DNA of 64,000 nucleotides, taken from the NCBI RefSeq assembly GCF_937123735.1, contig NZ_CAKZKL010000007.1:1-64000 (forward strand). Direction: 5' to 3'. Shown piece by piece: positions 12,804-33,084 of the stretch. A program made the translations under genes and the position numbers. The notes beneath the pieces are model-generated. The model searched no databases. It had not been told where the DNA came from and saw only the letters and a program-made list of their open reading frames with translations. Position 1 is the stretch's first letter. The number at the start of each line of letters is the position of its first letter. This DNA is from an uncultured Lentibacter sp. Its GTDB lineage: Bacteria; Pseudomonadota; Alphaproteobacteria; Rhodobacterales; Rhodobacteraceae.

Positions 12804-12885
12804 GTTAACCTGGCTGCGCCACCTTTTGGGCTCTTGGGGCGGTGCACGCTTTGTGCACGCCCTGTGCACGCATATCACCCCCCGG
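12804..12885. promoter_or_regulatory. Composite repeat element copy 1: GTTAAC ... GTGCAC x3 at 11 bp pitch ... TATCACCCCCC
   Basis: GTTAAC 12804-12809; GTGCAC at 12842, 12853, 12864; same layout at 32031-32107. Confidence 0.75.
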
Positions 12886-12928
12886 TTTTGCGCAGTTTTC
12901 AGATCCTTAAGCAGGCAAACCGCAGGCT

Positions 12929-30205: not shown

Positions 30206-30251
30206 GCGCCCCGCAGTGTCCCCTCAGTGCGCCCCGCAGTGTCCCCTCAGT
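30206..30251. repeat. 23-bp tandem duplication GCGCCCCGCAGTGTCCCCTCAGT x2
   Basis: Exact copies at 30206-30228 and 30229-30251. Confidence 0.9.
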
Positions 30252-31884
30252 GTCCGCCGTCCAGAATACCGGTCTGCACATCATAATCCACCGCCAGCGC
30301 ATAATCGGGGTCATCGTCGCTATCAACCATAAGGTGCCCCGCCTTGGTCAAAAGCCTGTGGCAGTCGCGGCTCAGGTGGCGCAGCTTGATCTGCTTGCCC
30401 GCCGCCTCGTATTTCGCCGCCACAGCCTCGATCGCCTGCAAGGCCGATTGATCCACAACCCGGCTGTCCTTGAAGTCCACGATCACAAGATCAGGGTCGC
30501 CGGCCACGTCAAACAGCTCCGCAAACCCGTCTGCCGAGCCAAAGAAGAGCGGCCCCTGAATCTCATAGACTTTCGCCCCCTCATCCGTGGTCGACTCGCG
30601 CGTCACAGCATGAATGCGCGTGGCATTGTTCCACGCATAGGCCAGCGCCGAAACGATCACCCCCACAACAACCGCAATCGCAAGGTCATAGGCCACCGTC
30701 ACAATCGTCACGAGGATGGTGACAAAGGCATCCGTCAGCGGCACGCGCCGCAAAATGGTGAGCGAGTTCCACGCAAATGTGCCGATCACCACCATGAACA
30801 TCACCCCCACAAGCGCGGCCAGCGGGATCTGCTCAATAAGCGGCGAGGCAAAGAGAATAAACACCAGCAGGAACAAGGCCGCCGCAATACCGGCAATCCG
30901 CGTGCGCCCACCCGATTTCACGTTGATCATGCTCTGCCCGATCATCGCACAGCCGCCCATGCCACCGAAAAAGCCGGTCACAACATTGGCCGCGCCCTGC
31001 GCCAGACATTCCTGCGAAGCCCCGCCACGCTTGCCGGTGATCTCGCCCACAAGGTTGAGCGTGAGCAGGCTCTCGATCAGGCCAATCGCCGCCAGAATAA
31101 CCGCATAGGGCAGGATAATCTCGAAGGTCTCCCAGCTCAGCGGAACAGTCGGAATGTGAAAGCTCGGCAAGCCGCCCTTGATGGAGGCCAGATCGCCCAC
31201 GCGCGGCACATCAAGCCCCAGCGCAATCACAAGCACCGCGACAATCCCGATGCCCGCAAGCGGCGCGGGGACAAACCGTGTCACCTTGGGCATCACCCAG
31301 ATGATCGCCATGGTCAGCGCCACAAGCGAAAGCATCATCATCAGCGGCGTCCCAGAAAGCCACTCGCCCCCGCTCATGCCGTGGCCCGTGTTCACAACCG
31401 TGCCCGGCACTTTGAACTGCGTCATCTGCGCGAGGAAAATCACAATCGCCAGCCCGTTCACAAAGCCCAGCATCACTGGATGCGGCACAAGGCGGATGAA
31501 CTTGCCCCAATGCATCGCCCCCGCAATGAGCTGCAAGATCCCCATGAGCACGACGGTCGCAAAGAGATATTCCACCCCGTGCTGCGCCACGAGCGCCACC
31601 ATCACAACCGCCAAGGCCCCCGTCGCCCCCGAGATCATCCCGGGCCGCCCGCCGAAAACAGCGGTGATCAGCCCGACAAGAAACGCCGCATAAAGCCCGA
31701 CAAGCGGGTGCACCCCAGCGACAAAGGCAAAGGCCACCGCCTCGGGCACAAGCGCAAGCGCCACCGTCAGCCCCGCCAGCAGCTCGATCCTGATCCGCCC
31801 CACGCTAAAGGGCTCGTCCGGCATCAGCCTCAGGTCGGGCATGGCAAGGCGGTTGGCAAAAGCTGCCATCAGGGCGCGTTTCAT
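30247..31884 (-). CDS. SulP family anion transporter with STAS domain
   Basis: Multi-TM SulP sequence (ALVPEAVAFAFVAGVHPLVGLYAAF) plus C-terminal STAS. Confidence 0.93.
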   Translation of the reverse strand: MKRALMAAFANRLAMPDLRLMPDEPFSVGRIRIELLAGLTVALALVPEAVAFAFVAGVHPLVGLYAAFLVGLITAVFGGRPGMISGATGALAVVMVALVAQHGVEYLFATVVLMGILQLIAGAMHWGKFIRLVPHPVMLGFVNGLAIVIFLAQMTQFKVPGTVVNTGHGMSGGEWLSGTPLMMMLSLVALTMAIIWVMPKVTRFVPAPLAGIGIVAVLVIALGLDVPRVGDLASIKGGLPSFHIPTVPLSWETFEIILPYAVILAAIGLIESLLTLNLVGEITGKRGGASQECLAQGAANVVTGFFGGMGGCAMIGQSMINVKSGGRTRIAGIAAALFLLVFILFASPLIEQIPLAALVGVMFMVVIGTFAWNSLTILRRVPLTDAFVTILVTIVTVAYDLAIAVVVGVIVSALAYAWNNATRIHAVTRESTTDEGAKVYEIQGPLFFGSADGFAELFDVAGDPDLVIVDFKDSRVVDQSALQAIEAVAAKYEAAGKQIKLRHLSRDCHRLLTKAGHLMVDSDDDPDYALAVDYDVQTGILDGGH

Positions 31885-32030: not shown

Positions 32031-32107
32031 GTTAACAAGTCGCCGATTCCCAAAAGGTGTTTCAGGCGGTGCACGCTTTGTGCACGGGTTGTGCACGCTT
32101 ATCACCC
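32031..32107. promoter_or_regulatory. Composite repeat element copy 2: GTTAAC ... GTGCAC x3 at 11 bp pitch ... TTATCACCCCCC
   Basis: GTTAAC 32031-32036; GTGCAC at 32069, 32080, 32091; lies in the sulP/mtnP divergent intergenic region. Confidence 0.78.
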
Positions 32108-32211
32108 CCCTGATTCTGCGGCTTCACAAGCCGGTTAACGCAGCGCGCGCCGCCTTGCCTTCGGCGCTGGCTCAGGCCACAAATGAGGCTGGAAAAGACA
32201 GGGAGAACACC

Positions 32212-33084
32212 ATGAGCGAGACAATCATCGGCGTCATCGGCGGATCAGGCATCTACGAGATCGACGGGCTGCAAAACCCTGTCTGGCAAGAGGTTGAAAC
32301 CCCTTGGGGCAAGCCCTCCGATGCGGTTCTGACAGGCAGCCTTGAGGGGGTCAAAATGGCCTTTCTCCCCCGCCACGGCCGCGGCCATGTGCACACGCCA
32401 AGCAGCGTGCCCTACCGCGCCAATATCGACGCCTTAAAGCGTCTCGGTGTGACGGATGTGATCTCCGTTTCCGCCTGCGGAAGCTTCCGTGAAGAAATGG
32501 CCCCGGGCGATTTTGTCATTGTAGATCAATTCATTGACCGCACCTTCGCGCGGGAGAAATCCTTTTTCGGCACAGGCTGCGTGGCGCATGTTTCGGTCGC
32601 GCATCCCACCTGCGCCCGCCTTGGCGCGGCCTGCCTTGAGGCCGCTCGGGACGCGGGCATCACCGTCCATCAGGGCGGCACCTACCTCGCCATGGAAGGC
32701 CCGCAATTCTCCACGCTGGCGGAGAGCCGCATGTATCGCGAAAGCTGGGGCGCCGATGTCATCGGCATGACCAATATGCCCGAAGCAAAGCTCGCCCGCG
32801 AGGCCGAGCTCTGCTATGCTTCCGTCGCCATGATCACCGATTACGACAGCTGGCATCCTGAGCACGGCGAAGTCGATGTGACTGAAATCATTAAAACTTT
32901 GATGGGCAACGCCGAGAAAGGCCGCGCTCTGGTCAGCCGCCTCCCCGCCCTACTCGGAGCCGCCCGCGCGCCCTGCCCGCACGGCTGCGACCGCGCTTTG
33001 GACTATGCCATTCTCACAGCCCCCGAGGCCCGCGATCCGGCCCTTCTCGCCAAGCTTGACGCCGTCGCCGGCCGCGTGTTGTGA
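32212..33084 (+). CDS. mtnP: S-methyl-5'-thioadenosine phosphorylase
   Basis: [49 protein letters not shown]. Confidence 0.93.

Follow-up and report, generated by a model that had tools for sequence, protein, structure and literature searches.

A polar, phased repeat array of Rhodobacteraceae accompanies one-sided changes in strand composition

Between the genes for a SulP-type sulfate permease and an MtnP-like phosphorylase, an uncultured Lentibacter sp. carries three GTGCAC hexamers at an exact pitch of 11 bp. Phased palindromes of this kind are usually read as an operator array for the flanking genes. Here, we ask whether that reading holds for this array and, if it does not, what the array marks. 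The locus lies in a 64,000-nucleotide stretch of contig NZ_CAKZKL010000007.1 (positions 1 to 64,000; hereafter the window), which also contains a second copy. The initial annotation of the window had described GTTAAC at 32031 followed by GTGCAC at 32069, 32080 and 32091, with a copy of matching layout at 12804 (GTGCAC at 12842, 12853 and 12864), and the sequence is as described. The spacing between GTTAAC and the array, given as constant, is equal in both window copies, but this N38 distance varies across the copies of the genome. Three features come in addition: a second TTAA/GTTAAC at about +66, a near-invariant TNTCACCCCCC tail and a polarity of the whole element. The layout is as follows.

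32031..32036, +, GTTAAC preceding the array of copy 2; belongs to a TTAA-rich, loosely conserved arm at about -38
32065..32110, +, core of copy 2: GGCG, three GTGCAC at 11-bp pitch and the tail GCTTATCACCCCCC; highly conserved
32069..32074, +, GTGCAC unit 1 of copy 2
32080..32085, +, GTGCAC unit 2 of copy 2
32091..32096, +, GTGCAC unit 3 of copy 2
32097..32110, +, tail GCTTATCACCCCCC of copy 2; TNTCACCCCCC is nearly invariant among 50 copies
32134..32139, +, downstream GTTAAC arm of copy 2, at about +66
12804..12809, +, GTTAAC preceding the array of copy 1
12838..12883, +, core of copy 1: GTGCAC at 12842, 12853 and 12864, then GCATATCACCCCCC
12908..12911, +, TTAA arm following the array of copy 1, at +66
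30247..31884, -, SulP-type sulfate permease gene (Sulfate_transp and STAS), flanking copy 2
32212..33084, +, MtnP-like phosphorylase gene (PNP_UDP_1), flanking copy 2

The genes adjoining the window copies are the SulP permease/MtnP pair and an NAD-dependent dehydrogenase gene; gene functions were annotated for these window copies only. No Rfam family matched the window above its gathering score, and the reading as an RNA element was dropped on that ground.

The array is not confined to the window. The exact full triple occurs 50 times in the Lentibacter genome itself (2.92 Mb in 50 contigs), where the reversed pattern used as a control gave no match, and the window contains four GTGCAC-N5-GTGCAC pairs against none in 100 shuffles; triplets at this pitch are thus well above the chance frequency that the initial annotation had named as a possible objection. 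The 50 oriented copies give the consensus GGCG-GTGCAC-GCNTK-GTGCAC-GNNNT-GTGCAC-GCATNTCACCCCCC, with TTAA/GTTAAC about 37 bp before and about 66 bp after the array. The upstream arm, at about -52 to -27, is C/G-rich and then TTAA-rich and is loosely conserved, its best column being a T at -37; there follow TTNGGCG, the three GTGCAC units with their GCNTK and GNNNT spacers, TGTGCACGCATNTCACCCCCC, an NNTTT patch and the TTAA arm at about +66. Column conservation among the 50 copies was absent outside about -52 to +72. Within the array the spacers vary while the core is constant, a pattern that suits protein-binding sites better than freshly duplicated DNA. The flanks contain TTAA repeats whose commonest spacing in the congener G005 is N6, judged by eye, compared with TTAA-N7-TTAA in the CtrA box. 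A separate imperfect palindrome, GGTGCGCA-N-TGCGCACC, which is possibly a terminator or a REP-like repeat, lies beside the copies at loci L032, L041, L047, L048, L060, L067, L071 and L073.

Related genomes retain the element, as the initial annotation had proposed to check. In G001, a congener species with a single-contig genome and roughly 80–90% protein identity, at least 45 of the 50 copies have matching neighbours and the same relative orientation. The array upstream of mtnP is found at one common place in all eight congeners, with the GTGCAC unit in four of them. In the congeners G002, G004 and G005 the element positions are kept despite a changed unit: they carry TGCAC-type, non-palindromic units at 11, 12, 12 bp, without the C-run, in roughly 46–65 or more copies genome-wide; G004 is identical to Lentibacter algarum B3M08 across the shared mtnP locus. 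In G007 the mtnP array consists of two GGTGTAC units. Since related species have non-palindromic units, the palindromy of GTGCAC is incidental and the units are direct repeats; the helical phasing noted at first stands, and recognition of a GTGCAC hairpin or palindrome is ruled out. A unit that changes at kept sites points to a co-evolving DNA-binding protein, which likely reads the array, and drift in the specificity of this putative protein would be the simplest cause of the concerted change. Beyond the genus, a GGTGYAC form with a CACCCC tail was found, at the stringency used, in 25 of 397 genomes of the family, some of which gave no more than one or two weak matches. Among these 397 genomes most other genera gave no match to the GGTGYAC-type pattern; they may lack the element or carry a unit of an unrecognized type. 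Two named Leisingera strains have about 20 copies each, and in Leisingera sp. ANG1 the array also occupies the mtnP position. Copy numbers per genome range from 20 to 75. Some copies of clade B, which takes in L. algarum B3M08, lie one gap away from their clade A counterparts and point the other way (L156 and L162 versus L115 and L116), which indicates local turnover of copies.

The gene context does not favour a role in the expression of the neighbouring genes. Genes were called with a home-made, simple codon-model gene finder for 101 copies from two species (the window's own genome and G001), and every copy is intergenic. Convergent gaps make up 37 of the 101 element-bearing gaps but only 17 of 152 other gaps of 100 bp or more, whereas divergent gaps make up 11 of 101 against 62 of 152. 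Copies in tandem gaps run with the genes in 25 cases and against them in 28, so that gene direction is without influence. The two parts of the earlier reading therefore separate. A cooperative protein-binding array is well supported by the phasing, the constant core, the variable spacers and the unit that changes in concert at kept positions. The data do not support a regulator of the flanking genes, because convergent 3' ends are favoured, divergent regions are avoided and orientation follows the replication arm instead; on this gene context a promoter or regulon element was ruled out.

The orientation of the copies was examined in G001, where GC skew and the GGGNAGGG motifs alike change direction close to 1.46 Mb and again close to 3.0 Mb; the dnaA gene, at 1.1 kb, is about 280 kb away from the second of these skew switches. 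With the arms defined by skew and GGGNAGGG, the strand that bears the C-run is the C-rich strand of its arm in 45 of the 51 elements, a figure matched by none of 2000 orientation permutations. The G001 copies are also spaced more evenly than at random (CV of 0.67 against a random range of 0.76–1.24). In G005, 14 of 20 copies follow the replication arm. The motifs GGGNAGGG/CCCTNCCC are themselves almost perfectly polar by arm in G001 (loci L081–L140) and, to judge from this distribution, are a likely KOPS of Lentibacter. Around the terminus skew switch of G001 (1187–1530 kb) there is one copy in about 340 kb, where about five would be expected. Two complete Leisingera repABC replicons have two full copies flanking repABC with their 5' sides outward; NZ_CP083554.1 had no full-pattern copy within the 100 kb examined. 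Matches on plasmids are very few overall, a few chromid-like replicons carry the array, and it occurs in a single viral contig and in no phage record. All four copies on Sulfitobacter plasmids (L211–L214) lie in one common segment adjoining a RidA gene, which indicates that one chromosome-like piece has spread among plasmids.

The element also coincides with a change in base composition. On its 5' side, over tens of kilobases, the DNA is C-rich on the element strand and richer in GC. The window provides a local example: between 28000 and 40000, raw GC skew is about -0.14 ahead of copy 2 and about -0.07 immediately beyond it. At the six G001 copies that are discordant with their arm, the sign of the skew flips at the element and stays flipped for at least 20 kb on the 5' side, while the KOPS keep the orientation of the arm. 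Local inversions behind these copies are disfavoured, since the KOPS are unflipped and the orientation relative to neighbours is common to both species. In a regression on fourfold sites of sampled G001 genes, with gene strand included, the effect of lying 5' of an element (+0.196, t = 18) exceeded that of the replichore (+0.074); the G001 composition data come from part of the chromosome. Read on the element strand, the base change in G001 is mostly T to C, and fourfold GC is 0.69 on the 5' side compared with 0.56 in intervals bounded by two 3' sides. For all 51 copies of G001, skew within 3 kb differs only slightly, and not significantly, between the two sides (-0.281 versus -0.264), whereas the step in GC is clear (0.694 versus 0.630); at the concordant copies a clear step is limited to GC content, and the data by interval look close to what plain fork direction would give. 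In G000 the skew step within 3 kb is significant. Two genomes of other genera, G217 and G388, have 5' skews of -0.14 and -0.24 within 10 kb, compared with 3' skews of about -0.04 and -0.02, the direction of the step agrees in 19 of their 20 copies, and their upward skew change points fall mostly within a few kilobases of an element; in G005 the change points are looser, with a median offset of 4 kb. In the Leisingera repABC replicons, skew is weak between the paired elements and stronger outside them. Synonymous divergence, used as a test of recombination, was near saturation and was accounted for by composition.

The array is thus a multicopy, intergenic, position-conserved and arm-oriented element whose units change in concert and at which strand composition shifts on one side. 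It looks like an unrecognized signpost for the copying or repair of the chromosome rather than a gene switch. Tentatively, and as the account we prefer, we take it to be a polar chromosome-maintenance site of Rhodobacteraceae at which one-sided DNA re-synthesis or recombination starts, with an effect resembling that of Chi although the site is not Chi. A putative fast-evolving protein would bind the 3–5 phased direct repeats, and the bound array would stop or redirect DNA-processing machinery that reaches it from its 5' side, such as a nuclease or helicase engaged in resection and moving from a broken fork in the direction of the origin. Synthesis of DNA would then restart at the element towards its 5' side, which is normally towards the terminus, and repeated rounds of such one-sided, recombination-linked synthesis would leave a footprint that is greatest next to the element on its 5' flank and weakens farther away. 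The logic would be that of Chi, except that a long site bound by protein would replace the short word. Extra strand asymmetry and raised GC that begin at a polar site and fade away from it are what is expected if the 5' DNA has repeatedly been re-synthesized or converted from the element outward. We infer that such a stop-and-restart boundary covers most of the observations together; the compositional footprint is a historical trace, which does not directly show the process. A wider proposition, that much of the GC skew of chromosomes and chromids stems from one-sided re-synthesis or recombination at 20–75 fast-evolving, putatively protein-bound arrays acting as polar restart or repair boundaries and not from origin replication, seems to us doubtful.

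The array does not have the full set of defining features of Chi, KOPS, Ter, pac or operator arrays. Chi is a word of 5–8 nt, present in thousands of copies and read by RecBCD/AddAB itself. Both are polar with respect to replication (the G-rich strand is mostly the leading one; 45 of 51 copies in G001 and 14 of 20 in G005) and have a one-sided effect, tied here to a rise in GC, but the array is neither short nor numerous: it is roughly 45 bp of phased repeats in 20–75 copies with a fast-changing unit. KOPS, which are 8-mers that act with FtsK, share the orientation by replication arm and occur in the same genomes; the array, unlike an arm-polar octamer, is long, rare, intergenic and accompanied by a compositional step, its sequence is another one, and GGGNAGGG fills the KOPS role. 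The Ter/Tus system likewise consists of polar, protein-bound DNA sites (the protein being putative for the array), but the array, rather than clustering at the terminus, is spread round the chromosome and is if anything sparse near the terminus, and forks normally enter it from the C-run side. With pac and cos sites it shares phased repeats as a possible target of a protein ring and a processive consequence in one direction; it differs in having no phage copy and in being chromosome-wide and arm-oriented, and the small terminase of gene transfer agents (GTAs) has, by eye, no evident DNA-binding domain. Human replication origins show upward skew jumps that decay with distance, as those here do, but here a defined bacterial sequence marks each jump, and most of the asymmetry lies on one side. 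We found no published description of the array in the open-access papers searched.

If the preferred reading is correct, bacteria have a long, protein-read, polar signpost along whole replicons, and part of the GC skew, usually credited to origin replication alone, has a concrete local cause. That the unit has changed in concert among congeners while its positions stayed fixed amounts to a natural experiment for identifying the protein, and the question is testable in culturable L. algarum and Leisingera strains.

The composition could also reflect secondary unidirectional origins or restart sites, from which forks would run 5'-ward so that skew simply records fork direction. Nearly all steps are indeed upward, origin-like skew jumps, skew is nearly uniform in the concordant intervals of G001, as expected with one-way forks, and GC is lower in the intervals predicted to replicate last. 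Nevertheless, the 3' sides in G388 and G217 are almost free of skew although ordinary forks pass there, and the Leisingera origin region between the elements is weakly skewed despite ordinary fork passage. Near-zero 3' skew in some genera puts a model based on fork direction alone in difficulty, and to our knowledge no bacterial chromosome with multiple origins of such a kind has been described. We regard this explanation as unlikely.

Packaging by GTAs is likewise an improbable source, though one that accounts for the one-sidedness and range of the effect: the arrays would be pac-like starts from which headful packaging runs 5'-ward, and recurrent transfer with single-strand uptake would leave the footprint. 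Phased repeats resemble phage packaging sites, the footprint of tens of kilobases corresponds to about ten headfuls of 4–4.5 kb, and the PF13547 GTA gene family was present in 21 of 21 genomes tested, nearly all of them element-bearing; GTA genes are, however, common in the family, which makes their presence weak evidence. A study of D. shibae describes GTA packaging as non-random, with discrete peaks, and this is suggestive only; the peaks are there described as symmetrical, which speaks against the packaging account (PMC11841831). GTA small terminases diverge fast, and that of RcGTA is a coiled-coil protein with weak, non-specific DNA binding (PMC6854486); the terS-like open reading frames upstream of terL look coiled-coil as well, as judged by eye only. 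Nor does packaging explain the orientation by arm and the outward copies around repABC, and the near absence of the array from viral sequences also counts against it.

A site of chromosome architecture or segregation, such as an SMC roadblock, a nucleoid-occlusion site or an FtsK/KOPS-like signal, would have an indirect link to skew. It would suit a chromosome-wide, polar and evenly spaced element that is intergenic at the 3' ends of genes and present on a few chromid-like replicons but on very few plasmids overall; by itself it explains neither the one-sided footprint nor the reversal of sign at discordant copies, and the KOPS-like GGGNAGGG is already there and separately polar, so that we hold this alternative to be quite improbable.

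An operator array for the flanking genes, which the phased direct repeats and the place of copy 2 upstream of mtnP would fit through a cooperative regulator, is very improbable given the varied flanking genes and the gap preferences described above, which are not those of promoters of a coherent gene set. Equally improbable is a functionless dispersed element of the MITE or REP type: copies are many and similar, can shift to an adjacent gap between clades and on Sulfitobacter plasmids all come from one segment, but there is no identity beyond the motif columns, positions are long conserved rather than differing, the unit has changed in concert at fixed sites with orientation by arm, and no strains with and without a copy at one site, together with target duplications, were seen.

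A further genus may hold a variant. G025 contains 26 GTGCAC triples at 11-bp pitch with at most one mismatch, almost never followed by the CACCCC tail; these triples may represent an alternative form of the array. The GTA_TIM gene of G025 is interrupted by in-frame stops.
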